From contig VGMN01000013.1 in NCBI GenBank assembly GCA_016866355.1, positions 1 through 33,240 on the forward strand: a stretch of DNA of 33,240 nt, written 5' to 3'. Position numbers and translations under genes: made by a program. Below are positions 19,426-33,240 of the stretch, in pieces. Source of the DNA: Bacteroidota bacterium (GTDB lineage: Bacteria; Bacteroidota; Bacteroidia; Chitinophagales; Chitinophagaceae). Below the pieces are notes generated by a model. It saw only the letters and a program-made list of their open reading frames with translations. It was not told where the DNA came from and made no database searches. Every line of letters begins with the position of its first letter. The stretch's first letter is position 1.

Positions 19426-20637
19426 TTAAAAGAAACGGAGAATCCAGTAAATAAAACCAGCCAATAGTGCACTCACAGGGATGGTAAGTATCCAAGCCCA
19501 TATTAAATTAATGGTTACCCCCCAGCGAACGGCAGATAATCGCTTGGTGGCACCCACGCCCATAATAGCTCCAGTGATAGTATGTGTAGTGCTTACCGGG
19601 ATTTTTAATGCTTCTGTTAGAAAAAGTGTAAGGGCGCCAGCTGTTTCAGCTGCTACGCCTTCAAAAGGACTTACTTTTGTGATCCGTGTTCCCATTGTTT
19701 TTACAATTTTCCAACCGCCACTCATGGTTCCCAAACCAATGGCCGCGTAGCAGGCAATGGGTACCCAGTTGGGCATTTCTTCAAAATTGCTAATCTGTCC
19801 ACCCGCAATAAGTGCAGCCGTGATAATGCCCATTACTTTTTGCGCGTCATTTCCTCCATGCCCGATACTAAATGCCGCAGAGGATACCAGCTGAAGTTTT
19901 TTAAACCACAAATTGGATCGATGTGCGTTTAGTTTATTTAAATAAAGGGCGAAAAAGGCCATGGTAAGCAGGATAAACGCTAACAGAATCCACTTGAAAT
20001 TCTTGGAGTAGAAAATTACTTGCATCCAATAACTTTCATAATCCGTTTTTCCAGCTAATTCAGTAGGATCAGTCAGCAAATTGGATTGCAGAAAATACAC
20101 AACGTAAGCAATTACTACAATGGATATAATGCGGGATTTCCAGCCTTTCCCAAAGGAACTGAGAAACCACAGTGACATAATAAATGCCATTAGCATACCA
20201 ATCATGGGAGCCAATATGATAAAACTGGCAGTCTTTACAATTACCGCAGTATTGACAGCGTCAAATCCTGCAGCAGCAATACCTGCACCTGCAAAACCAC
20301 CAATCAAGGTATGAGAGGACGAAGATGGAATTCCAAACCACCAAGTCAACAAATTCCAAGCAATAGCTGCGATTAATCCGGCAAAAATCACATTCATCAT
20401 GCTGGCACCATTTACAGCATCTGCATTGACAGTTTTGGCAACTGTGTTGGCAACGCCATGGTCCTTAAAAATAAAAAAGGCAATTGAATTGAATATGGCA
20501 GCCCAAAGAACTGCTTGAAATGGAGTTAACACTTTTGTAGAAACTACCGTTGCAATAGAGTTGGCGGCATCATGGAATCCATTGATGTAATCAAACAACA
20601 ATGCCAATACAATTATTGAAATAAGAAAAGTAGTCAT
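19426..20637 (-). CDS. pit: PiT-family inorganic phosphate transporter
   Basis: The 403-residue membrane protein belongs to the PiT family of low-affinity, cation-coupled phosphate transporters. Both family signature repeats are visible: GFHDAANSIAT at residues 20-30 and GHGGNDAQKVMGI in the second half. GIPSSSSHTLIGG and PVSTTHTITGAIMG are the paired substrate-path motifs. It lies 6 bases behind the DUF47/PhoU-like gene, the usual pit arrangement. The intergenic region upstream of the pair is shared with the putative Pho-box of the divergent receptor operon. Confidence 0.95.
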   Translation of the reverse strand: MTTFLISIIVLALLFDYINGFHDAANSIATVVSTKVLTPFQAVLWAAIFNSIAFFIFKDHGVANTVAKTVNADAVNGASMMNVIFAGLIAAIAWNLLTWWFGIPSSSSHTLIGGFAGAGIAAAGFDAVNTAVIVKTASFIILAPMIGMLMAFIMSLWFLSSFGKGWKSRIISIVVIAYVVYFLQSNLLTDPTELAGKTDYESYWMQVIFYSKNFKWILLAFILLTMAFFALYLNKLNAHRSNLWFKKLQLVSSAAFSIGHGGNDAQKVMGIITAALIAGGQISNFEEMPNWVPIACYAAIGLGTMSGGWKIVKTMGTRITKVSPFEGVAAETAGALTLFLTEALKIPVSTTHTITGAIMGVGATKRLSAVRWGVTINLIWAWILTIPVSALLAGFIYWILRFF

Positions 20638-20643
20638 TGCTGC

Positions 20644-21294
20644 TTAAGCGTATTTGAGAACAATCGATTCGATAACATTGCTGGCATCCTCACATTTGTC
20701 AGTGGCCAGTTCCATGACCTGGTAGATCTCCCGAATCTTGATTACCTCTTTTGCATCCGTTTCCATGGCAAATAACCGTTCGATGCTCATGTCGAAAATG
20801 TCATCTGCCTGGTTTTCGATACTATTAATTTTGATCATAGCCTCTGTGATGGCTTTGATATTTTTCATATCGCGGAGTTGTGTCACAGCAATTTTTACTT
20901 GCTGACATCCTTGCTCAATCAACTCTGCAAATTTTTGCATCCCCATGTCATTGGTATTGACACGATAAAAGTTCATTTTTTTTGCAGAGCCGTATATGTA
21001 GTCGGCAATATCATCCAAAGAAGTAGCTAAGTAGTGAATGTCCTCTCTGTCAAAGGGGGTAATGAAATTTCTGCCCAGCTCTGTAAAAAGGCTATGGGTA
21101 AGGTCATCATTTTGATGCTCCAGGTCTTCTATGACGGCTATCAGCTTGGCTCTTTTGTCAATATCCGTTTCTGCCACTACTGCTTTTAGCTGTGTACCCA
21201 TGATGGTAAGGTTTTCAGCTACTTTTTCAAACAGTTCAAAGAACACCGCATTCTTTGGGACAAATATTTTCAATAATGAATTAAAACCTGACAT
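20644..21294 (-). CDS. DUF47/PhoU-like protein, partner of PiT
   Basis: The 216-residue all-helical protein belongs to the DUF47 group of PhoU-like proteins. Repeated acidic patches typical of PhoU metal sites are seen: EHQNDDLTH, SLDDIADYIYG, NSIENQADDIFD and TDKCEDASNVIES. These proteins are encoded beside PiT transporters and are thought to limit their activity or report on phosphate status. This one is the first gene of a two-gene operon. The weak promoter candidate upstream is TTTG, then 17 bases, then TACTTTCA (minus strand, between 21295 and 21355). Confidence 0.93.
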   Translation of the reverse strand: MSGFNSLLKIFVPKNAVFFELFEKVAENLTIMGTQLKAVVAETDIDKRAKLIAVIEDLEHQNDDLTHSLFTELGRNFITPFDREDIHYLATSLDDIADYIYGSAKKMNFYRVNTNDMGMQKFAELIEQGCQQVKIAVTQLRDMKNIKAITEAMIKINSIENQADDIFDMSIERLFAMETDAKEVIKIREIYQVMELATDKCEDASNVIESIVLKYA

Positions 21295-21369: not shown

Positions 21370-21430
21370 GTAACATTTTGGTAACATTGAGGTAACTATT
21401 GCTTAATAATGTGGTGACTTACCGGTAACA
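21370..21430 (+). promoter_or_regulatory. Putative Pho box: six hexamers with an exact 11-bp period
   Basis: Hexamers lie at 21370 GTAACA, 21381 GTAACA, 21392 GTAACT, 21403 TTAATA, 21414 GTGACT and 21425 GTAACA, each separated by 5 bases. An 11-bp direct repeat is the hallmark of OmpR/PhoB-family response regulator sites, and the hexamer is close to the Bacillus PhoP box. The last unit begins 15 bases before the -7 box at 21440, replacing a normal -33 element (none is seen). A PhoB-PhoR pair is encoded at the right end of the window. Assignment to PhoB is inference; the repeat itself is directly visible. Confidence 0.75.
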
Positions 21431-21439
21431 TGAGCCGAG

Positions 21440-21447
21440 CACCTTTG
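21440..21447 (+). promoter_or_regulatory. -7 box of the receptor operon
   Basis: CACCTTTG is one mismatch from TAnnTTTG and ends 17 bases before the ATG at 21465. No TTG is found at the -33 distance, which fits a promoter that depends on an activator bound to the repeats upstream. Confidence 0.5.
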
Positions 21448-21464: not shown

Positions 21465-24287
21465 ATGCAGGTTCGTTTAACCCTTCTTTTCACCGTTCTC
21501 CTTTTTGCTGCTTCGCAAGCTACAGCCCAATTGATTCCTTTTGTGGGTAAGGTAATCAACATTAAAAATGAACCATTAGTTGGGGCATATGTAACAATTG
21601 AGGGCACTAATGCTACCACCTTATCAACTGACGTTGAGGGTAAATTTTATACAAAATTAGAAGCTGGAAAAAAGTACATTTTCAAGATTACCAACACAGG
21701 ATATGAATCCAAACAGGTTGCTGACATACTTGCAAGCCCCAATCAAGAAAATATCCTTGAGATAGTTATGCAGGAAAGTGCCAAATCTAATCTGCAGTCT
21801 ATCACACTTACCAGTTCTTCTCGCCGTCAGGAAAACACCAGTGCTTTATTGAGTTTTCAACGAAATAATATTTCATTATCTAGTGGTCTGGCTGCTGATT
21901 TTATCCGCCGCACGCCTGATAAAAATACCGGGGAAGTTCTAAAGCGTGTGAGTGGAACCAGTATCCAGGATAATAAGTTTGTAATAGTACGCGGACTAAG
22001 TGATAGATACAATGCGGCGCTAATTAATAATGCGCAGTTACTCAGTTCTGAACCTGACAAAAAAGCATTCTCATTTGATTTGATTCCCTCTTTGATGGTT
22101 GATAATATTATAATTAACAAAACTGCCACTCCGGATCTTACTGGGGAATTTGCAGGTGGACTGGTTCAGATCAATACAAAAGACGTTCCTGCACGAAGCT
22201 TGCTCACAGTAGGTGTAAGCTGGGGTTTCAATAACCAATCAACATCTAAAGATTTCACCAGCAATGCACGCAATAGTAATGATTGGCTCGGATTTGATGA
22301 TGGCACACGTTCATTACCAGCAGGTTTTCCAACTACCCCTCAGGCCTATCGTGTTTTAAGTGGAAGCAATACGGGAATTGCCCAGCAAATTGAATTAAGT
22401 AAGCTTTTCAACAATGAAGTGAGCAAAGAGATCGCCTCCACTGCAGCTCCGATCCAGACATATAATCTTACTTGGGGGATCAATAAGAAATTCAAAAAGG
22501 GAGGTGTATTTGGCTCTATCATTTCCGCCCAGTATCGCAAGAGTATGCTAAAGTTTGCAGTAGAGAGAAAACTGCATCAAGATGATGGCGATTTATTGGT
22601 ACAGTTATTTGATGACCAAAATAAATACTCTATTAATTCTGGTGTAATTGCCAACTTTACCTATGTAAAAGGGAAGCACAAAATTTCCTTCAAAAATCTT
22701 TTCAACCAACTTTTTGAAGACAATTACTACACGCGTACCGGCGTAAGTTTTGATCGTATTCAAGATATTGATTTCAGGTCTTCCGTTCTTAATCAACGTA
22801 GTTTATATACTAGCCAATTGGAAGGAAGTCACCAGTTGACATCAAGTGGCATTAAGTTAAATTGGAATGGTAATATTGGATATAACTGGAAAACGCAGCC
22901 TGACCTGCGTACGTATGCTTATTTCCGTCCAAAAGGAACCAGTGCTCCATTTGAATTCAACGATGATGATACGCGTAGATTTTTTAGTGATTTAAAGGAT
23001 TATAGCTACGGAGCCAACGGGTCTATCCTGATCCCTTTCAAGATGGGAAATTTCAAACAAAGTTTCAAGGCAGGGGGGTCCACATTGATTCGTATCCGTG
23101 ATTTCAGCAGTCGAATCTTTAGATATGAGCCTTCCAGCATTTTTCAATTTAATAGTCAGTTAGTGTATCTGCCATTTGATCAGTTGTTGGCACCTGCAAA
23201 CATGTCTACTCGTGGGTTTAGAATTTTAGATTTCACGAATAATCAAGATAAATATTTTGGAGTCTCTGTTGTGAATGGAGCCTTTGCCATGTTTGATAAT
23301 AAATTGGCAGATGAATGGCGTTTAGTGTGGGGAGTGCGTGCTGAAAATTTTCAGCAATTTTTGACAACCAAGGATGTAACTGCTAAGCGCGTTGTGGTTA
23401 ACACAGAAAAATGGGATATCCTCCCTTCGTTCAATTTAACTTTTTCGCCCTCGCCTAAGCATAACATTCGTCTAGCAGGTAGTCAGACGGTAGCGCGTCC
23501 TGAGTTCCGTGAAATTGCACCATTCTCATTTTTTGATTACGAGGTAAATTATGCAGTGGATGGTAACCCTGATTTGAAGCGTAGTTCAATCATAAACGGA
23601 GATCTTCGTTACGAATTTTATCCTAAGGGTGGAGAAGGTATCACATTAGGGGCCTTTTATAAATCTTTCACGAATCCTATTGAATTACGATTGAATCCTT
23701 CCAGTGTACTCGACAGAAGAAATTATAAGTTTTACAACGCACAAGATGCTACCACCATTGGGGCAGAGTTAGAAATTAGAAAGAATTTGGTTTCACTTCA
23801 AGATGGCGATGCACAGTTAAGCACTTTTGTTAACCTCACCTATATCAGTTCAACGGTAACCCTTGCCTCCACATCTGGCGGTGGTCAAACTGTATCAAGT
23901 AGCCGTCCTTTACAAGGGCAATCTCCTTATCTGATTAATTTGGGATTGCAATTTGACAACAGCAAAAAAGGAATCAGCAGTTCGTTGTTATACAACAGAA
24001 TCGGGCAACGCCTCAGTTTGGTTGGGTTGAATGATTTAGGTTTCCCAGATGTTTACGAGCGTCCTCGTGATCAAGTTGATTTCCAAGTTTCCAAGAAAAT
24101 TTTTGCAGGTAAGGGCGAACTCAGATTAACCTGGTCAGATATCTTGAATCCATATTACTATTTCTATGAAAATGTAAATAAGGAAACTTCCTTCCAGGAG
24201 GGTACAGATCGTTTGTTCTATGCATTCAGACCTGGGTCTACTATTTCTTTTGGTTTTACATATGATTTTAATACTTCTAAAAAATAA
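21465..24287 (+). CDS. TonB-dependent outer-membrane receptor with N-terminal CarboxypepD_reg-like domain
   Basis: The 940-residue protein has a signal peptide (residues 1-22, ending ATAQ), a carboxypeptidase-regulatory-like beta domain at about 25-103 (GKVINIKNEPLVGAYVTIEG), a plug domain at about 125-240 with FVIVRGLSDRYNAAL at 172-186, and a 22-strand-type barrel to the end. TonB-dependent receptors import scarce solutes across the outer membrane. No SusD-like gene follows, so it is not a SusC/SusD pair. Instead a beta-helix lipoprotein gene follows after 24 bases and is probably cotranscribed. The 11-bp repeat array upstream, the divergent pit-DUF47 operon and the nearby Pho genes suggest phosphate control and a phosphorus-related substrate; the substrate is not known. 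Confidence 0.93.
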   Translation: MQVRLTLLFTVLLFAASQATAQLIPFVGKVINIKNEPLVGAYVTIEGTNATTLSTDVEGKFYTKLEAGKKYIFKITNTGYESKQVADILASPNQENILEIVMQESAKSNLQSITLTSSSRRQENTSALLSFQRNNISLSSGLAADFIRRTPDKNTGEVLKRVSGTSIQDNKFVIVRGLSDRYNAALINNAQLLSSEPDKKAFSFDLIPSLMVDNIIINKTATPDLTGEFAGGLVQINTKDVPARSLLTVGVSWGFNNQSTSKDFTSNARNSNDWLGFDDGTRSLPAGFPTTPQAYRVLSGSNTGIAQQIELSKLFNNEVSKEIASTAAPIQTYNLTWGINKKFKKGGVFGSIISAQYRKSMLKFAVERKLHQDDGDLLVQLFDDQNKYSINSGVIANFTYVKGKHKISFKNLFNQLFEDNYYTRTGVSFDRIQDIDFRSSVLNQRSLYTSQLEGSHQLTSSGIKLNWNGNIGYNWKTQPDLRTYAYFRPKGTSAPFEFNDDDTRRFFSDLKDYSYGANGSILIPFKMGNFKQSFKAGGSTLIRIRDFSSRIFRYEPSSIFQFNSQLVYLPFDQLLAPANMSTRGFRILDFTNNQDKYFGVSVVNGAFAMFDNKLADEWRLVWGVRAENFQQFLTTKDVTAKRVVVNTEKWDILPSFNLTFSPSPKHNIRLAGSQTVARPEFREIAPFSFFDYEVNYAVDGNPDLKRSSIINGDLRYEFYPKGGEGITLGAFYKSFTNPIELRLNPSSVLDRRNYKFYNAQDATTIGAELEIRKNLVSLQDGDAQLSTFVNLTYISSTVTLASTSGGGQTVSSSRPLQGQSPYLINLGLQFDNSKKGISSSLLYNRIGQRLSLVGLNDLGFPDVYERPRDQVDFQVSKKIFAGKGELRLTWSDILNPYYYFYENVNKETSFQEGTDRLFYAFRPGSTISFGFTYDFNTSKK

Positions 24288-24311: not shown

Positions 24312-25670
24312 ATGAAGTCGATTCTCACAAAAGTGCTTGCGGCAGTATTACTGTTAAGCACATCCGCTTGCGTAAAAGTAAATTTCGAGGATGGAGGCGG
24401 TGGCGGCACTGTCGTTCCTACTGACCCTACCAGCAATGTAATTACTGGTGTGATTTCCTCCAGTAAGTTTTATGCTAAGGGTAAGTGGATTTTAAAAGGT
24501 TATGTATATGTAATTGATGGTGCAACTGTAACCTTTGAAGCAGGTTGTGTGGTGCAGAGTGATGTGACTGAAAAAGGCGCTCTCATCATTGAGCGTGGTG
24601 CAAAAATTATTGCCTCAGGTACAAAAGACAATCCAATTGTTTTCACTAGTGGAAAGCCCATCGGATCTCGTGCACCTGGTGATTGGGGTGGTATCATCCT
24701 TTTGGGTAAAGCGCCTACCAATCGTCCATTAGATCCTGCTCCAATTATTGAGGGTGGGGTAGGTCGTCAATATGGGGGTACTAACCCAACTGATGAAAGC
24801 GGAATACTTCGTTTTGTAAGAATTGAATATGCTGGTATTGCAGCTGAGCCTGGTTCTGAAATTAATGGATTGACTTGTGGTGGTGTAGGCTCAGGAACAA
24901 TTATTGAAAATGTGATGGTTTCTTTTGGTAATGATGATGCATTTGAATTCTTTGGAGGTACTGTTAATGCCAAAAATTTGATAGCATTTGCTACAGCTGA
25001 CGATGATTTTGATTTTGACTTTGGGTACAGCGGTAAGATACAATATGCAATATCCATGCGTAAGCCTGATTTTGTAGATGCAGGTGATGCGGGTAATGGA
25101 ATCGAGTGTGATAACGATGCTAGTGGTACTAATGCTACGCCTATCACTCGTCCTCAGTTGAGTAACTTTACCATGGTAGGCCCTAATGATGCAACTGGAA
25201 CAGCTGCCAACCACAATTACTCAATGCGTTGGAGAAGAAGAACACAATTTGTAATTCGTAACTCCATCATGATTGGCCACCCTGACGCTGGTTTCTCTAT
25301 GGAATCTGATGGAACATTGAATGATTATTATGTAAATGGACTATCAGAGTTCCGGAACAACTTAATACATGCTACTACTAGCATCTACCGTAGTGGCAAT
25401 AATAATATTTGTACAGCTGCTCAAATTCAAGCTAAGGCTGAATCTGAGGGTTGTGTTACCCTGGCAAATAGCGCAGCTGCACGATTGACAAGTCCTTTTT
25501 ATTCAGTTACCCCTAACTTCTTACCAGCCACAGGGTCTCCTGCGCTAACTGGAGCAAGTTTTACAGGTATGAATAGTTTCTTTACTTCAACCACATTCCG
25601 TGGGGCTATGGGAACCACTGATTGGACTTCAGGCTGGACTGCATGGGATCCGCAGAATAAATCTTATTAA
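24312..25670 (+). CDS. Beta-helix lipoprotein paired with the TonB-dependent receptor
   Basis: The 452-residue protein begins with a lipoprotein signal (MKSILTKVLAAVLLLSTSAC, lipidated Cys20) and a Gly-rich linker (GGGGG at about 32). After that come repeating short beta strands with turns, as in right-handed parallel beta-helix proteins: GATVTFEAGCVVQSD, GALIIERGAKIIAS, GTIIENVMVSFGNDDAFEFF. A very acidic segment, TADDDFDFDFGYSG, may bind metal ions. It has no recognised catalytic motif. I recall proteins of this type beside TonB-dependent receptors in other Gram-negative bacteria, but no function is established to my knowledge. It is the second gene of the operon and is followed by a strong terminator. 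It may be a surface ligand-binding partner or hydrolase. Confidence 0.8.
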   Translation: MKSILTKVLAAVLLLSTSACVKVNFEDGGGGGTVVPTDPTSNVITGVISSSKFYAKGKWILKGYVYVIDGATVTFEAGCVVQSDVTEKGALIIERGAKIIASGTKDNPIVFTSGKPIGSRAPGDWGGIILLGKAPTNRPLDPAPIIEGGVGRQYGGTNPTDESGILRFVRIEYAGIAAEPGSEINGLTCGGVGSGTIIENVMVSFGNDDAFEFFGGTVNAKNLIAFATADDDFDFDFGYSGKIQYAISMRKPDFVDAGDAGNGIECDNDASGTNATPITRPQLSNFTMVGPNDATGTAANHNYSMRWRRRTQFVIRNSIMIGHPDAGFSMESDGTLNDYYVNGLSEFRNNLIHATTSIYRSGNNNICTAAQIQAKAESEGCVTLANSAAARLTSPFYSVTPNFLPATGSPALTGASFTGMNSFFTSTTFRGAMGTTDWTSGWTAWDPQNKSY

Positions 25671-25739: not shown

Positions 25740-26171
25740 ATGTACATTTTCCGATACCTGTTATTAGTGAATGTTGTGCTGCTTTTTGCCTTTTGCACAC
25801 CCAAGGGAACGCCCGACCTTTTACCTGAGTTGTCCTTTTGTGACAGTGCTGTAGTTATGTTTTACAAAACTCCAGGTAATCCCAGGTTTTTCAAGATGGT
25901 TAAGATTTATGATAAGACTGAACTGGCTACTATTGCTAATGCAGCTAACCAGCCTGCAAGACTTACAGAACGTAGCTGTACTACGCAGGGCAAAATTTAT
26001 TATTATGGAGACAAGGGGGAGGTGTATGTGCTATATTTCACTTACGATGCTGCTTGTAAGTCAATTAGCTTCATAAAAACGGGTGAAAAGTATGAGGTAG
26101 ACCTTCCTGATGCAGTTTATGAAATTCTTGAAAAAAGGCAAAAGCTGGCTTACGAACCTGCCTCTCGCTAA
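25740..26171 (+). CDS. Small exported protein of unknown function, possible lipoprotein
   Basis: The 143-residue product starts with a hydrophobic export signal ending in a Cys (LLFAFC, Cys19) followed by TPKGTP. The residues before the Cys are not an ideal lipobox because Phe is at -1, so lipidation is uncertain. Four further Cys residues are present, in LSFCDS, RSCTTQ, DAACKS and the signal, so a disulfide is possible. No family is recognised. It follows the terminator at 25722 after 17 bases, and a shortened -7-like TAGTTTG lies 5 bases before the ATG, so it probably has its own start of transcription. An AT-rich hairpin begins at its stop codon. Confidence 0.65.
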   Translation: MYIFRYLLLVNVVLLFAFCTPKGTPDLLPELSFCDSAVVMFYKTPGNPRFFKMVKIYDKTELATIANAANQPARLTERSCTTQGKIYYYGDKGEVYVLYFTYDAACKSISFIKTGEKYEVDLPDAVYEILEKRQKLAYEPASR

Positions 26172-26279: not shown

Positions 26280-26531
26280 ATGAATACCATCATCGAAGCA
26301 ATTCGAAGGGCATCATCTGTCCATGAAGTTTCTAGTTTATTAGACAATTGTTGGCAGGAGAAAAAGAGGTCAGGGCCTGATGTTGGACTGTTTTTTTTAA
26401 GTGAATTAAGGTCGGTGCTCAACCAAATTGACCCCATAGACGTGGCCCAGCCTGATGAATGGACTAACATACAGCATGCCAGAGTTTATCTTCACCGCAT
26501 TACTGCAAAGCAATCTGCTTCGGAAAAATAA
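26280..26531 (+). CDS. Hypothetical protein, 83 aa
   Basis: The frame opens at 26223, but I chose the ATG at 26280 because it lies downstream of a perfect -7 box and the extra residues look non-coding. The product, MNTIIEAIRRASSVHEVSSL onward, is a small soluble helical protein with no membrane segment and no recognised motif. Its last 32 bases overlap the 3' end of the convergent glycosyltransferase gene. Confidence 0.55.
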   Translation: MNTIIEAIRRASSVHEVSSLLDNCWQEKKRSGPDVGLFFLSELRSVLNQIDPIDVAQPDEWTNIQHARVYLHRITAKQSASEK

Positions 26532-27534
26532 GATTTCTATTAGTTGGGGCAGCGCCTACTTCCAGTAAATAGGTTAGCGATTGTTGAATTGATTGGCTAT
26601 AATCACGAGATAGAGTGGCTCCATTTTGTAACCAGGACTCAATAGTTTCAGTATCAAGTGATTTATAAGGGTCTAGGACTTGCACCCCCATATTTTTCAA
26701 AGCAGCTCCATTACAATATTGCTCATATTGCCCCCATATTGGCATAGCTAATATTTTCTTACCCAATTGCAAGGCCTCTGCTGGAGTTTCAAATCCGGCT
26801 CCACATATTATTCCTGCACAGCTAATCAAGCTTTTATTGAAGGATTCCTGATCGATAGGCTTGAAAATTATATTTTTTTGCTGCGTTACTGTTTTTACCG
26901 TCTTGCTAAAAACCTCAAATCGCTGAAGAGGTATTTTTTTAAGTATTGATTGCAGGAAGCTGTCATGCAGTGCGGGAAGGTATACCGTGATGTGCCCTTC
27001 ATTGACCGGAGTGGCTTCTAGTATCTCTTGCTTTATGACGGCTCCAAAAATTGAAGGGTGATACTTTTCAAAGTGCAAGCCTATATGATGTGTGGCTTGA
27101 ACATATTTCTTTAAGAGCAGTTCTCCATGCCAGCTTTTAAAAATAGGTCTGGGCGCCTCAGTATATTGAAAGCTGGCTTGGTGTCCAAAATGCACCGAGG
27201 GAACCTTTTTCAAACTGCAAGCTAAAGAGGTCAAGCAATCAAAGTCATTCAACACCAGATCATATTTTTCAACAGGTAAGGACATTACCTCTTTATAAAC
27301 GCCAAGGGGATTACGCTGAAAGGCAATCTTGGGATAATCCAGTCCACCGGTATTATTGTAGTAAAGACTGATTCCTTTACTTCTGAATTTGACAGGCAAA
27401 TTTGCTTGGAGATGGCTATTATTTCCGCTTAAAAAACAGTCAACTTCTCCCCATTTTTGTAGATGGGGCAGTAGGGTTATGGCTCTACTAATATGCCCAT
27501 TACCGGTAGCCTGTACTGCGTAAAATATTTTCAT
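26500..27534 (-). CDS. GT-B glycosyltransferase (TIGR00661/MJ1255-like), candidate diacylglycerol glycosyltransferase
   Basis: The 344-residue protein has a two-domain GT-B pattern. The N-terminal acceptor motif ATGNGHISRA contains GNGH at residues 11-14. The C-terminal nucleotide-sugar site includes GAGFETPAEAL at 245-255 and GQYEQ at 268-272. GNGH-type N-termini also occur in MurG, MGDG synthase and diacylglycerol glucosyltransferases. It begins 12 bases after the PlcP-like gene and is surely cotranscribed with it. In phosphate-starved Alphaproteobacteria, PlcP makes diacylglycerol from phospholipids and a neighbouring glycosyltransferase (Agt, a different subfamily) turns it into glycolipid. 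I infer the same division of labour here. The donor sugar and acceptor are not visible from sequence. Confidence 0.78.
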   Translation of the reverse strand: MKIFYAVQATGNGHISRAITLLPHLQKWGEVDCFLSGNNSHLQANLPVKFRSKGISLYYNNTGGLDYPKIAFQRNPLGVYKEVMSLPVEKYDLVLNDFDCLTSLACSLKKVPSVHFGHQASFQYTEAPRPIFKSWHGELLLKKYVQATHHIGLHFEKYHPSIFGAVIKQEILEATPVNEGHITVYLPALHDSFLQSILKKIPLQRFEVFSKTVKTVTQQKNIIFKPIDQESFNKSLISCAGIICGAGFETPAEALQLGKKILAMPIWGQYEQYCNGAALKNMGVQVLDPYKSLDTETIESWLQNGATLSRDYSQSIQQSLTYLLEVGAAPTNRNLIFPKQIALQ

Positions 27535-27546
27535 GTGTAGCTTAGA

Positions 27547-28392
27547 TTAAAAAGGAAGTTGGTGTATGTGTAATCCTATTTCATCCGTTTCCACATTTAA
27601 CTCAGGTAACTGTTTTTGCATACTTACCACCGGTGCCAGCTGGTAATCCTCTTCTTTATAGTGGTAGATCTCCCAGTTTTGATTATTGTATTCAAGTGCA
27701 GTTAAATTCTCAATCCAATCTCCACTATTTAGATAAGTGACCTGCCCTTCTGTTGTTGTAACTATTCGTTGCTGGGGTTGGTGTATGTGTCCGCAAATCA
27801 CATAATCATATCCCTTGTTAATGGCCAACTCTGCTGCAGTCTGTTCAAAATCCGCAATCCAGCTAACTGCTTTTTTGACACCATTTTTTACCTTCTTACT
27901 TAAGCTCATCTTAGGTTGTCCCATTTGAGTCAGCATCCAGTTTATAAGTCGGTTTAGAAGAATCAGCCAGTCATATCCCCATCCTCCCAACTTGGCAATG
28001 AACTTTGCACTTCCCTTTGTAGTAGCATCGAAAACATCCCCATGGAAAATCCAGGTACGTTTTCCATTCATTTCAATTACCAGTTTATCGGTAAGCTGAA
28101 AATTTCCCAGGTGTAGTTCGCTATAGCGGCGAAGCATTTCATCATGATTGCCTGTTATGTACACAACCCGAGTACCCTGTGCAAGTAGATTTAGGATCTC
28201 TTTAATAACCTGCATATGGGCAGGGGGGAAGTAGCTTTTGCTAAATTGCCAGCCATCTATAATATCCCCATTTAAAATCAGTAACTGCGGTGTAATGCTT
28301 TTGAGGTAATGCACCAATTCCCTTGCATGACAGCCGTAGGTTCCCAAATGAATATCACTTAGCACCACTACATCGGGACTTCTTTTCTGCAT
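27547..28392 (-). CDS. plcP: Metallophosphoesterase of the PlcP/LpxH2 type, probable phospholipase C for lipid remodelling
   Basis: The 281-residue protein shows all calcineurin-like metal motifs: SDIHLG (Asp13, His15), NGDIIDGW (Asp43), GNHD (81-84), FHGD (His117) and GHIHQP (His202, His204). Annotation pipelines tend to call such proteins UDP-2,3-diacylglucosamine hydrolase. However, GTYGCHARELVHYL, the central VSWIADFEQTAAELA region and NSGDWIENLTAL match what I remember of rhizobial PlcP, a phosphate-starvation phospholipase C that removes head groups from phospholipids. It is encoded directly upstream of a glycosyltransferase and downstream of a four-unit 11-bp repeat array like that of the receptor operon. 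A plain LpxH role in lipid A synthesis remains possible. Confidence 0.75.
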   Translation of the reverse strand: MQKRSPDVVVLSDIHLGTYGCHARELVHYLKSITPQLLILNGDIIDGWQFSKSYFPPAHMQVIKEILNLLAQGTRVVYITGNHDEMLRRYSELHLGNFQLTDKLVIEMNGKRTWIFHGDVFDATTKGSAKFIAKLGGWGYDWLILLNRLINWMLTQMGQPKMSLSKKVKNGVKKAVSWIADFEQTAAELAINKGYDYVICGHIHQPQQRIVTTTEGQVTYLNSGDWIENLTALEYNNQNWEIYHYKEEDYQLAPVVSMQKQLPELNVETDEIGLHIHQLPF

Positions 28393-28405
28393 TACTTACT
28401 GTTTA

Positions 28406-28413
28406 CCGAAGTA
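28406..28413 (-). promoter_or_regulatory. Weak -7 box of the plcP operon
   Basis: On the minus strand this reads TACTTCGG, which keeps four of the six fixed positions of TAnnTTTG and ends 13 bases before the ATG at 28392. A poor core promoter fits activator dependence. It starts 16 bases after the start of the last repeat hexamer, nearly the same distance as in the receptor operon. Confidence 0.35.
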
Positions 28414-28423
28414 AAGCCGCTAA

Positions 28424-28462
28424 CGTTAACTAGGTATTAAGCAGATGTTATGAAACCGTAAA
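28424..28462 (-). promoter_or_regulatory. Putative Pho box: four hexamers with an exact 11-bp period
   Basis: On the minus strand, in order toward plcP, the hexamers are TTTACG (28462-28457), ATAACA (28451-28446), TTAATA (28440-28435) and TTAACG (28429-28424), each separated by 5 bases. The 11-bp period and the TTAACA-like consensus match the array at 21370-21430. The orientation points to plcP. The array also lies upstream of the divergent ppx gene, but in the reverse sense. The repeat is directly visible; binding by PhoB is inferred. Confidence 0.65.
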
Positions 28463-28494
28463 CCATTTTTTTCTTTTTTATTTATTTCAATCTG

Positions 28495-28502
28495 TAAATT
28501 TG
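28495..28502 (+). promoter_or_regulatory. -7 box of ppx
   Basis: TAAATTTG is a perfect TAnnTTTG match ending 8 bases before the GTG start at 28511. No clear -33 TTG lies at the expected distance. The transcript would have almost no leader. Confidence 0.5.
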
Positions 28503-28510
28503 AAGCCGAA

Positions 28511-29508: not shown

Positions 29509-31590
29509 ATGCTAATTCCACGTGACATCAGCTGGCTGTCATTTAATGGCCGCGTATTACAAGAAGCCAATGATCCTACCGTTCCGCTTCAACAGCGTAT
29601 TCGATTTTTGGGCATATTTTCAAATAATCTGGACGAATTTTTCAGAGTACGTGTAGCTACACTTAAAAGAATGTCTGACTACAGTGCCAGACGAAAAAAA
29701 CTCAACATTGATATTGATGCCAATGCGCAGCAAATCCTGGACGAAATCCAGATGATTGTGTTGCGACAGCAAAATGAATTTGAAAGAATTTGGAAAAATA
29801 TTCTGCAAGAACTCAAACAACACCGTGTTTATTTAAAAAATGAAAAACAGCTTACAAAACCACAACAGCAGTTTGTAAGGGAGTTTTTTGAAACACAGGT
29901 TCGTAATTATGTTATCCCGTTGATGATTGAGGCATTACCCACCTTGCCTTATATAAGAGATAAAAGTATTTACTTGGGTGTGGTAATGCGAAAAAAGAAC
30001 ACAGCCTATCAGGATCAGTATGCCTTAATTGAAGTTCCTGTAACATCCATTGGTCGATTTGTGCTGCTTCCCTCCCCGGGAAACGAAAAACATATTATTC
30101 TTTTAGAAGATATTATTCGTTTTAATCTCCCTCGCATCTTCCCCTATTTTGATTATGATCTGTTTGAGGCTTGGCTATTTAAAGTCACTAAGGATGCCGA
30201 ATTGGAAATAGATCATGACCTGTCTACCAGTTTTGTAGAAAAAATGGCAAAGGGTATTAAAAATAGAAGGAAGGGCAAGCCCGTTCGATTTGTGTATGAT
30301 AAGGAGATGGATAATGGATTGTTGCAGTATTTAATTGGTCGGTTAGGGCTCACAAAAAAAAGTGCCATCATACCCGGTGGCCGCATACATAACTTTAGAC
30401 ACTTTATGGATTTTCCAAAAGTGTTACCAGTTACACAGCAACGTAAGCCCGCTTTCACCCATCCTCTGTTACGTGACAAGCTTCGTGTAACAGATGTGGT
30501 ATTGCAAAGGGATATCATGTTGCATTTTCCCTATCATTCTTTCGACTCCTTGATTGATATGTTGCGTGAGGCAGCGATGGATGCTACAGTTGAAAGAATC
30601 CAACTAACAGCTTATCGGTTGGCTTCTTCTTCCCGTGTTATTCATGCGTTGATCAATGCCGCACGAAATGGAAAGTCTGTAGAGGTAATGCTTGAGTTGA
30701 AAGCCAGATTTGATGAAGAGGCTAACCTGGAATGGAAATCGGTGTTAGAAGAAGAAGGAATTCGGGTTTTGTTGGGAGTTCCTAATATGAAAGTTCATGC
30801 TAAGCTTTGTGTAATTACCCGTCGAGAGAAACAGAAATTACAATACTACGGATTTGTCAGTACGGGGAATCTAAATGAGTCTTCTGCCCGCTTATATGCA
30901 GATCATTGTTTGTTGACATCATCTCCAGCAATCATGCGGGATGCGTTGAGAGTGTTTGAGTATCTGGGAAAATGGCAACGGGGGATGACGCCACTTTGGA
31001 AGTGTAAAACTTTATTGGTATCTCCTGTAACTATGCGTCCCTCTATTGCTCGATTAATTGAGCGGGAAATTAAAATAGCGCATGCAGGGAAAAAAGCAAA
31101 AATTATCATTAAGCTCAATTCACTCAGTGACCTAACCTTGATTAAACTATTGAATAAGGCTGTATCAAGTGGGGTAGAGCTTCATTTAATTATCAGGGGG
31201 ATCTATTGTGCACAGTTCCCGATTTCTAAAAAAAGACTACCTCCACATGCCATAAGTATTGTGGATGAATACTTGGAACATGCACGCGTATTAGCTTTTT
31301 ATAATAAGGGTAAGGAGCGTGTCTTTATCTCTTCGGCGGATTGGATGGTACGCAACCTGGATTATCGATTAGAGGCTGCAGTTGAAATAGTCGATAAGGC
31401 TATAAAAAATGAGTTTTTAAATATATTGGATATCCAGCTTGCCGATAATGTCAAAGCAAGGTTGTTGAACGCTACACTAGATAATCAATATGCAGGTGGT
31501 AACCCCAAGCAATTTATTCGATCGCAGGTTTTGATTGCCGATTTTTTACAACGCGCTTCTTCTAGCCGTTTCAATAAAACTGTTAGCTAA
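29509..31590 (+). CDS. ppk1: Polyphosphate kinase 1
   Basis: PPK1 makes polyphosphate reversibly from ATP. The 693 residues match the family length. The N-terminal domain opens RDISWLSFNGRVLQEA and includes FSNNLDEFFRVRVA. The catalytic C-terminal domains carry the autophosphorylated His at 430 (MKVHAKL) and the second essential His at 591 (YLEHARV), equivalent to His435 and His592 of the E. coli enzyme as I remember them. The 98-base gap before it shows no convincing promoter or repeat array. It ends with an 8-base overlap with the convergent phoR gene. Confidence 0.97.
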   Translation: MLIPRDISWLSFNGRVLQEANDPTVPLQQRIRFLGIFSNNLDEFFRVRVATLKRMSDYSARRKKLNIDIDANAQQILDEIQMIVLRQQNEFERIWKNILQELKQHRVYLKNEKQLTKPQQQFVREFFETQVRNYVIPLMIEALPTLPYIRDKSIYLGVVMRKKNTAYQDQYALIEVPVTSIGRFVLLPSPGNEKHIILLEDIIRFNLPRIFPYFDYDLFEAWLFKVTKDAELEIDHDLSTSFVEKMAKGIKNRRKGKPVRFVYDKEMDNGLLQYLIGRLGLTKKSAIIPGGRIHNFRHFMDFPKVLPVTQQRKPAFTHPLLRDKLRVTDVVLQRDIMLHFPYHSFDSLIDMLREAAMDATVERIQLTAYRLASSSRVIHALINAARNGKSVEVMLELKARFDEEANLEWKSVLEEEGIRVLLGVPNMKVHAKLCVITRREKQKLQYYGFVSTGNLNESSARLYADHCLLTSSPAIMRDALRVFEYLGKWQRGMTPLWKCKTLLVSPVTMRPSIARLIEREIKIAHAGKKAKIIIKLNSLSDLTLIKLLNKAVSSGVELHLIIRGIYCAQFPISKKRLPPHAISIVDEYLEHARVLAFYNKGKERVFISSADWMVRNLDYRLEAAVEIVDKAIKNEFLNILDIQLADNVKARLLNATLDNQYAGGNPKQFIRSQVLIADFLQRASSSRFNKTVS

Positions 31591-32629
31591 CAGGTAATGT
31601 AAATCCAATAGTAGTTCCTACCTGTTCAGTGCTTCTGGCGTGAATAGTTTCTCCATGCGCCTCTATCATATGTTTACAAATGGCAAGGCCTAACCCACTA
31701 CCAGTGATATCACGCGAGCGTCCTGTTTCTGTACGATAAAATCTTTCAAATATTCGACTAATCTCTCTCTCAGCAATTCCAATTCCATCATCTGTGATTT
31801 CAATTAAAATATGTTTGTCATCTGTTTTATACATCGATGCGGTGATGCTACCATTTTGTTTTCCGTATTTACGTGCATTTTCAACTAGGTTGCTTAATAC
31901 CTGTCTAATCTTTTCTTTATCGGCATAAACAGGTAGAGGAGCTTCACATTCCTTTTTAATGCTGCAATGGGTTGTAGTATTATCCGCTGTTAATTCTGTC
32001 ATTTCAAAAACCTCTTTTACTAAGTCTTGAATAATGAAAGATTGTTTGATTAGGGGCAATTCACCTCTTTCTAACTTGGAAATTTGCTCCAGATCGCCCA
32101 ATAAGTTGGAGAGGCGTTCAACATTACGTCCCGCATTTTCCAAATATTTTTTATTAATTTTTGGATCTTCTAGTGCACCATCTAATAAGGTTTCTAAATA
32201 ACCTTGAATGGAAAAAATGGGTGTCTTAAACTCGTGCGATAGATTCTGTAAGAACTCTTTTCGAAACTGTTCATTTTGTCGGAGTAACTCCATTTCTTTT
32301 TCGTTCTCAATAGCCCAGTCTTCAACATCTTTACTGACTTCTTCTAAGGTTTTTGGAGGAAGTATGTATTTGTAATAGGTTTCTTCCTTTTTAGTTGTTT
32401 TAGTCTTGTGAATGAACTTGTATATCAACTTTATTTTTCGGTTTATGAACTGTTCCAACAATGTGTTGATAACAAAGAAGCTGATTGTAAAGAGCACAGT
32501 AAAGGAAAGTAATCCCAGTGCCCACTTGCCAGAAGCCCAAATCACTAATAGACTCTCAGGAATGGAAAGAATTAATGCCGCGGTTAGCGCAATTTGTCGG
32601 GGTGTGATATTGCTTTCTCGATTTGGCAT
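31583..32629 (-). CDS. phoR: Sensor histidine kinase, PhoR-like
   Basis: The 348-residue kinase has two N-terminal transmembrane segments (about 12-31 and 38-58) with almost no periplasmic loop. A linker leads to a dimerisation/phosphoacceptor domain with NLSHEFKTP (His132) and an ATPase domain with the N box NLVENARKYG, the G1 box DDGIGI and the G2 box GSGLGLAI. Lack of a periplasmic sensor domain is typical of PhoR, which senses phosphate through the transporter and PhoU rather than directly. It follows the PhoB-like gene after 36 bases. The PhoR name rests on domain layout and on the Pho-type neighbours, so moderate certainty applies. Confidence 0.85.
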   Translation of the reverse strand: MPNRESNITPRQIALTAALILSIPESLLVIWASGKWALGLLSFTVLFTISFFVINTLLEQFINRKIKLIYKFIHKTKTTKKEETYYKYILPPKTLEEVSKDVEDWAIENEKEMELLRQNEQFRKEFLQNLSHEFKTPIFSIQGYLETLLDGALEDPKINKKYLENAGRNVERLSNLLGDLEQISKLERGELPLIKQSFIIQDLVKEVFEMTELTADNTTTHCSIKKECEAPLPVYADKEKIRQVLSNLVENARKYGKQNGSITASMYKTDDKHILIEITDDGIGIAEREISRIFERFYRTETGRSRDITGSGLGLAICKHMIEAHGETIHARSTEQVGTTIGFTLPVS

Positions 32630-32665
32630 AAAACGTTTCAGTAAAGGTAAGCTTCGAATTTGCTG

Positions 32666-33240
32666 TTATAGCACAAATTTATACCCTACCCCTTTGACCG
32701 TTTTTATGCAGTCGATTCCCAATTTTTGTCTGATTTTTCTGATATGTACATCAATGGTACGGTCACCGACTATCACTTCATTTCCCCATACCTGAGTTAA
32801 AATTTCATTTCTAAGGAACACACGGCCAGGCTTGTTTGCCAGCAAGTAAAGAAGTTCAAACTCTTTCTTAGCCAGTGAAATAGATTTTCCATCTACTGTT
32901 ACTAAAAATTGCTCCGTGTTGATTGATATGGGACCAGCAACTAAAGTAGTGGTTTCAGGTTTAGTTTGTCTTCTAAATAAGGCTTGTAAACGGCTAATCA
33001 ATACTTTGGGGCTGACAGGTTTTCCAATATAATCATCGGCTCCTGTTTCCAGGCCTTTTACTACAGAACCGTCATCGCTTAAGGCCGTTAACATCACAAT
33101 CAACGTTTCACTAAATTGTACTTGCGAGCGTAATATTTTACAAACCTCAACGCCAGATTTTTTTGGCATCATTACATCCAGCAATATCAAGTCCGGTTTA
33201 TTTTTTTTGGCTTTGTCAAGCGCCTCATCTCCATCTTTTG
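32666..33240 (-). CDS. phoB: Response regulator, PhoB/OmpR family (5' end outside the window)
   Basis: The gene runs off the right edge, so the first part of the receiver domain is missing. The visible 190 or so residues include DLILLDVMMPKKSG with the phosphoacceptor Asp, the receiver Lys in GADDYIGKPVSP, and a C-terminal winged-helix DNA-binding domain (LAKKEFELLYLLANKPGRVF, RTIDVHIRKIRQKLG, TVKGVGYKFVL). OmpR/PhoB-family proteins bind direct repeats of about 11 bp, which is the period of the two arrays in this window. It is the first visible gene of the phoB-phoR operon. Confidence 0.92.
   Translation of the reverse strand, partial: KDGDEALDKAKKNKPDLILLDVMMPKKSGVEVCKILRSQVQFSETLIVMLTALSDDGSVVKGLETGADDYIGKPVSPKVLISRLQALFRRQTKPETTTLVAGPISINTEQFLVTVDGKSISLAKKEFELLYLLANKPGRVFLRNEILTQVWGNEVIVGDRTIDVHIRKIRQKLGIDCIKTVKGVGYKFVL

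Follow-up and report, generated by a model that had tools for sequence, protein, structure and literature searches.

A six-unit 11-bp direct-repeat array upstream of a TonB receptor-lipoprotein pair as a probable Pho box of Bacteroidota

We found a six-unit array of 11-bp direct repeats in front of a gene for a TonB-dependent receptor in a member of the Bacteroidota, and conclude that this array is very probably a Pho box at which PhoB binds under low phosphate and switches on the receptor together with a downstream lipoprotein. The evidence for the array, for its conservation and target genes, and for its register with the -7 promoter box is computational. The DNA under study, here called the window, is the whole analysed stretch of 33,240 nucleotides.

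The repeat array and its gene neighborhood

The array occupies positions 21370..21430 on the plus strand. Its hexamers read GTAACA, GTAACA, GTAACT, TTAATA, GTGACT and GTAACA and start at 21370, 21381, 21392, 21403, 21414 and 21425, every step being 11 bp, exactly as a first-pass annotation of this DNA had described. A search of the whole window for any six-unit hexamer repeat at steps of 8-15, with 200 dinucleotide shuffles as the null, returned the array as the top periodic site (52.7 bits, step 11, frame from 21369). The shuffle maximum was 45.9 bits and none of the 200 shuffles matched the array, which bears out the annotation's claim that such phasing would very rarely arise by chance. Tandem Repeats Finder by itself underestimates the array (2.8 copies) because the repeat units differ from one another. 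Direct repeats at an 11-bp step, at least two in number, are a mark of a Pho box, and six such units are present here. Within the organism's own genome (1.76 Mb), the pattern KTAACN6KTAACN6KTAAC with at most one mismatch occurred in this array only. With up to two mismatches, 22 matches were obtained versus 69 for the reversed pattern; these matches, showing no enrichment, were discarded, the weak ones being uninformative.

Nine bases past the end of the array, the distance that had been claimed, lies the -7 box CACCTTTG (21440..21447, plus strand). It is of the TAnnTTTG type, the consensus of the Bacteroidota -7 box, and its TTTG begins 19 nt past the start of the last hexamer. The inferred target gene (21465..24287, plus strand) encodes the TonB-dependent receptor, with a CarboxypepD_reg-like N-terminal domain and a Plug domain. 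It is followed by a lipoprotein gene (24312..25670, plus strand) which, by homology, belongs to a family trailing array-bearing receptors across the phylum. We call this family FII, a label borrowed from Flavobacterium johnsoniae on the basis of a predicted likeness to Fjoh_0546; the protein itself had no match in Pfam or NCBIfam. The same two databases gave no match for a small predicted lipoprotein (25740..26171, plus strand), which by its position is a possible third gene of the operon.

On the other side of the array, the divergent pit-DUF47 operon named by the first-pass annotation was recovered as a DUF47/PhoU_div protein (20644..21294, minus strand; PF01865) and a Pit-type phosphate transporter of the PHO4 family (19426..20637, minus strand; PF01384). 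The phoB-phoR operon that had also been noted was located at 31583-33240. It consists of a PhoR-like sensor kinase (31583..32629, minus strand), for which all NCBIfam matches stayed under their cut-offs, and the adjoining PhoB-like response regulator (32666..33240, minus strand), our proposed binder. The latter lacks its N-terminus, phoB being cut by the contig end with its promoter outside the assembly; its top NCBIfam match was PhoB (TIGR02154, 174 bits with a cut-off of 296). No PstC match was obtained at E 0.001 in this 1.76 Mb, 96%-complete genome, so the regulon may be small here. Phosphate uptake may depend on Pit alone in this organism and the TonB receptor may be the chief output of PhoB.

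A second, weaker array of four units at 11-bp steps (TTTACG, ATAACA, TTAATA and TTAACG) was found on the minus strand at 28424..28462, with a TTCG 19 nt past the start of its last hexamer. Its inferred target is a metallophosphoesterase gene (27547..28392, minus strand; PF00149, PF12850) whose top NCBIfam matches were of LpxH type, under cut-off. A glycosyltransferase gene (26500..27534, minus strand; PF13528, with an MJ1255-type match under cut-off) is likely co-transcribed with it. The first-pass annotation spoke of ten hexamers and had probably counted this second array in.

Occurrence of the array in relatives and across the phylum

We compared candidate promoters with a score whose weights we chose manually on the basis of the arrays in the window and in the genus and kept identical for all spacings; scores are therefore comparable between steps and arbitrary in absolute value, and the thresholds (13, 14, 12 and 11) were picked per script. 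DUF47 was detected in 102 of the 147 genomes searched. Among the best 30 DUF47 loci, window included, the sense strand carried a three-unit array scoring at least 13 in 23 and fell below 13 in 7, compared with 2 of 30 reaching 13 on the antisense strand as control. The gene behind the array, judged from sequence, was a receptor of the window's kind at 10 of the 30 loci. The other 20 comprised 19 with a porin-like gene and one whose contig was too short, and in four genomes (G037, G039, G041 and G060) an array-bearing receptor lay about 1.5 kb from DUF47, past the porin-like gene. Spacers diverge between relatives but the hexamers and their step stay (e.g. L046, L048 and L051). A second conserved pair, TTAATnATTnnTTAAT, also with an 11-bp step and nearly palindromic, was seen near the DUF47 start in many relatives (e.g. 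L046, L048, L051 and L035-L039); it is absent from the window and merges into the longer array in the porin-type relatives.

The 11-bp step stood out at other phosphorus genes as well. For 30 homologs of the window phosphoesterase (window included) the mean best three-unit score was 12.8 at 11 bp as opposed to 3.9-6.2 at 8-10 and 12-16 bp. Among pstC loci of the order, 12 of 30 exceeded 14 at 11 bp and 18 did not, while every other step gave none except for a single locus at 14 bp; of the 14 pstC loci in the class set that were over the cut-off, 6 exceeded 14 at 11 bp and 8 did not, versus 0-1 elsewhere. Of 30 FII-type loci, drawn from 40 genomes belonging to other families, 14 exceeded 13 at 11 bp versus 0-3 at other steps. 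PF12849 was dropped as a test for PstS: its 30 homologs showed no excess (mean 4.9 at 11 bp versus 2.9-5.7) and became a mixed negative set. Fifteen of the 30 came from the genus and are presumably not pst genes. In the genus, this family seems to catch PstS-like proteins outside pst operons, and no PstC match was found in the two genus members checked (G000 and G024). Single PF12849 loci from the same order (L113, L114, L116 and L117) scored 12-17.

In these counts, and in those of the searches with the bare DNA pattern below, related genomes are not independent of one another. A four-unit pattern with at most one mismatch gave 28 matches in 25 of the 147 genomes of relatives, versus 11 for the reversed pattern. 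Of the 25 distinct arrays, including that of the window, 18 preceded an N-terminus that by eye was TonB-receptor-like, two of these receptors (L057 and L061) being of a different, Oar-like type. The exact four-unit pattern was then sought in 395 genomes of the phylum and yielded 53 matches in 43 genomes versus 7 for the reversed pattern; none lay within an open frame of more than 120 codons. With the window excluded and two overlapping registers counted as one, 50 arrays remained. Half of them (25) preceded TonB receptors, identified by BLAST to the window receptor, and five preceded porins, with Porin_O_P among the families recovered. Single arrays stood before an FII-like lipoprotein gene, a PstS gene (256 bits, TIGR02136, cut-off 207) and a PstC gene (251 bits, TIGR02138, cut-off 196), and six before glycosyltransferase-like, glycerophosphotransferase-like or NeuB genes. 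The remaining 11 were found before other genes or none, without an evident phosphorus role, and some of them are probably chance matches; they include near-exact repeats (L148 and L218), arrays at dnaB, dapF and a FecR gene, and an extra array farther upstream of a porin (L166).

If the array is a phosphate-starvation site, as the first-pass annotation proposed, such arrays should be enriched before phosphorus genes. This was found in the relatives, where arrays preceded pstC, porins, the receptor-lipoprotein pair and a PlcP/LpxH-type phosphoesterase, and enrichment within the lineage upstream of phosphate-acquisition genes is a further mark of a Pho box. Among the places that had been singled out for inspection, namely phosphatases, pst and phoB, the phosphoesterase and pst carried arrays and the phoB promoters of six relatives (L253-L257 and L261) did not, their scores being -0.9 to 10.5 with no three-unit array. 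The phoB promoters of L253 and L256 contain TTAATATTAAGTTATCATTAA, two units 11 bp apart, and the other four contain variants of it; a weak autoregulatory site is possible.

TonB receptors are common in the phylum, and we therefore examined the neighbors downstream of the array-bearing ones. At 21 of the 25 array-receptor loci a homolog of the window lipoprotein was present within about 0.6 kb behind the receptor; the four loci without it were L296, which reaches a contig end, L299, L316 and L317. None of 15 regions picked arbitrarily from the same genomes contained the family. As these first controls were arbitrary stretches and not receptors, 20 other receptor loci from eight of these genomes were added; none had the lipoprotein and none had an array scoring at least 13 (top score 12.8). 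In all eight genomes checked, the array-bearing receptor was the top match to the window receptor, with E-values of 1e-97 to 1e-143 compared with 5e-22 for the next receptor. The bare DNA pattern thus selected the closest relative of the window receptor each time. Nineteen of the 21 lipoprotein-positive loci came from genomes labeled as the same phylum and not the same class. PstS was nearby at 3 of the 25 array-receptor loci and in none of the 15 arbitrary regions; a PhoB-like gene was nearby at 3 of the 25, with a PhoB-like stretch in 1 of the 15. In one locus (L314:3515-5992) the two FII queries matched neighboring segments downstream of the receptor, suggesting a tandem pair of FII copies, with PstS and a PhoB-like gene beyond them.

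Register of the array with the -7 box

A Pho box is further expected to stand in place of the upstream promoter element, with constant spacing to the downstream element, and this arrangement was observed. Of 107 collected promoters, 89 passed the array threshold. TTTG or TTCG began exactly 19 nt past the start of the last hexamer in 48 of these 89, that distance being absent in the other 41, whereas any other offset from 10 to 34 was found in at most 3 of the 89. At this spacing TTTG lies 13 bp past the end of the last hexamer. The promoters of array-bearing receptors had the 19-nt distance in 20 of 23 cases with a consensus of TA..TTTG, in a count that also allowed 18 and 20, that favored matches by choosing the last unit for a TTTG at 18-20 and that excluded L215 and L219 (both 18). 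The -7 box played no part in gathering the pst and FII sets, nor was the last unit chosen toward TTTG. Here, a -7-like box was present at 19+11k in 14 of 24 pst arrays (from 44 loci; at most 4 at any other residue) and in 18 of 20 FII arrays (from 30 loci; at most 10 at any other residue), the count of 10 arising from arrays of Flavobacterium type that resemble each other closely and contain a further TTTG. The fixed register fits the need of an activator to be in contact with RNA polymerase.

Phocaeicola vulgatus ATCC 8482 has divergent pstS and pstC genes (TIGR02136, 245 bits; TIGR02138, 297 bits). Each of the two promoters carries a separate array, exactly in register with TTTG, and the units closest to the -7 box are degenerate. 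Many of the porin promoters in the genus possess an array together with a TTGCA element at a different distance, mostly without the 19-nt spacing. Several FII-type genes of Flavobacterium type (L267-L279) have one array unit that is unrecognizable; their last TTAACA is still in the 11-bp register, 19 nt ahead of TTTG.

The regulator, rival readings and related systems

We propose PhoB as the binder, activation as its effect and low phosphate as the trigger. In the proposed sequence of events, PhoR would phosphorylate PhoB at low phosphate, and PhoB would bind the 11-bp repeats head-to-tail with one DNA-binding domain per hexamer on a single face of the helix. The last repeat would then sit about where the missing -33 element would be, and PhoB would hold RNA polymerase on the weak -7 box, thereby turning on the TonB receptor and the lipoprotein, which may serve as an outer-membrane phosphorus-scavenging pair. 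The interpretation of the first-pass annotation, a site for a phosphate-starvation activator, is in this way supported by comparative evidence, with PhoB as the presumed binder.

Direct repeats spaced by about 11 bp serve several OmpR/PhoB-family members as binding sites, and another regulator of this family, for instance an ArcA-like redox type, could bind the array with phosphorus genes as only some of its targets. In line with this, the motif of Riemerella anatipestifer PhoP is reported to resemble that of E. coli ArcA closely (PMC9603813). Against it stand the genes that the bare pattern recovers (PstS, PstC, Porin_O_P porins and the receptor-lipoprotein pair), an array between a receptor and a divergent phoB at L149 (54.5% identity to the window phoB), the arrays of the P. 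vulgatus pst promoters and the binding of Bacteroides fragilis PhoB to a pst fragment (PMC3547664). We consider such a regulator improbable. Even less likely, in our estimation, is that the main role of PhoB at the array is repression, under low phosphate, of the divergent DUF47-pit operon and its low-affinity transporter, the receptor being a secondary target. The array does lie in the intergenic region common to both operons, and a separate TTAAT pair is found near the DUF47 start in many relatives. However, the hexamers point to the receptor, the -7 register was found in that direction, which was the one examined, and no DUF47 match was obtained among the divergent genes of the phylum arrays.

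An array arisen by chance, or a functionless short tandem repeat prone to mutation, would account for a few of the phylum matches, which resemble such repeats (e.g. the near-exact L148 and L218), but as an explanation of the window array it is extremely unlikely in view of the shuffles, the retention of the hexamers as spacers diverge and the constant spacing from the -7 box. Control of the receptor by Fur or iron, common among TonB receptors, was set aside since arrays of this kind also lie upstream of pst and porin genes. We thus favor a PhoB-bound Pho box. More broadly, and with less confidence, we regard it as likely that the phylum shares a Pho-box code of 3-6 head-to-tail [GT]TAACA units in an 11-bp register, placed 19+11k nt ahead of TAnnTTTG without a -33 element, in which the receptor-FII pair and not Pst is the most widely seen target and the number and quality of units set the strength of induction of each gene. 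If so, this pair would be the core phosphorus-scavenging outer-membrane system of Bacteroidota, singled out by its operator, and bare DNA pattern searches could reveal the phosphorus regulon of a Bacteroidota genome. An operator with a fixed promoter register would make regulons predictable from sequence and direct targets easier to separate from indirect ones, in a phylum important to the cycling of phosphorus in soils, the sea and the gut.

The E. coli Pho box stands in for the upstream promoter hexamer, and the Bacillus subtilis PhoP box consists of TT(A/C/T)ACA repeats about 11 bp apart. The B. subtilis box resembles the window array in the kind of hexamer and in the step, but belongs to another phylum and sigma factor, and the 19-nt rule to TAnnTTTG was measured for Bacteroidota arrays only. 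E. coli PhoB likewise recognizes 11-nt direct-repeat units to which it binds head-to-tail (PMC4415409, seen in part); there, two units with a CTGTCAT core make up the box, in contrast to the GTAACA/TTAACA units, about three to six in number, and the Bacteroidota -7 box described here. An E. coli-type Pho box was ruled out for the window, whose units are GTAACA-like and lack the CTGTCAT heptamer core.

Closer to the window is R. anatipestifer of the same phylum, in which DAP-seq of PhoP yielded a motif that 579 of the 583 peaks contain and whose most conserved letters are TTTAACA, a core similar to that of the window units; we liken this regulator to the window PhoB by description. According to the portions of this work available to us, PhoPR is up at low phosphate, a gel shift was obtained with a TonB receptor promoter, the targets given are not phosphate genes and phosphorylation barely shifts the two binding constants given (PMC9603813). 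Its main text, figures and supplements aside, nowhere uses the terms "Pho box", "direct repeat" or "11 bp". For B. fragilis, whose pstS and pstC lie head to head, binding of PhoB to a 512-bp fragment of the pst promoter was demonstrated (PMC3547664); the same divergent layout contains two arrays in P. vulgatus, and the PhoB site in B. fragilis is known at the level of the fragment.

The receptor-lipoprotein pair has a counterpart in F. johnsoniae, where phosphate depletion induced the receptor Fjoh_0545 by 8.0 and the lipoprotein FII, Fjoh_0546, by 9.9 (column FC, taken as log2; PMC8115612, Table 1). Both genes adjoin phoBR; the receptor has PF07715/PF13715 domains and the lipoprotein a pectin-lyase-like fold. 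In the same table, the OprP porin next to phoBR shows no induction (-1.3) and PhoR barely any. None of the terms "Pho box", "motif" or "promoter" is used in the main text of that paper (PMC8115612). A recognition sequence for one phosphate-responsive Bacteroidota regulator has already been published. In the portion of the open literature covered, with subscription papers and regulon databases outside the scope, we found no description of an operator common to Bacteroidota. Our tests add the form that the box takes in Bacteroidota, namely three to six units in constant register with the -7 box, and its phylum-wide link to one receptor-lipoprotein pair.

The second array also has parallels, which we draw by description and not by sequence: putative Pho boxes, that is, predicted PhoB sites, are reported upstream of plcP-type genes at plcP gene clusters of marine bacteria, and plcP was induced under phosphorus starvation in the flavobacterium Dokdonia sp. 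MED134 (PMC4796936, seen in part). PlcP (8.6) and a glycosyltransferase (5.4) responded likewise to phosphate depletion in F. johnsoniae (PMC8115612, same column). In the window, the second array sits in the short gap (28393-28510) between the phosphoesterase on the minus strand and ppx-ppk on the plus strand, and these polyphosphate genes could come under its control too. At three phylum loci (L203, L207 and L169) an array separates a metallophosphoesterase gene, assigned by Pfam at L203 and L169 and from its sequence at L207, from a divergent gene of glycosyltransferase-like or NeuB type; this arrangement may reflect phosphorus-sparing changes of the cell surface.
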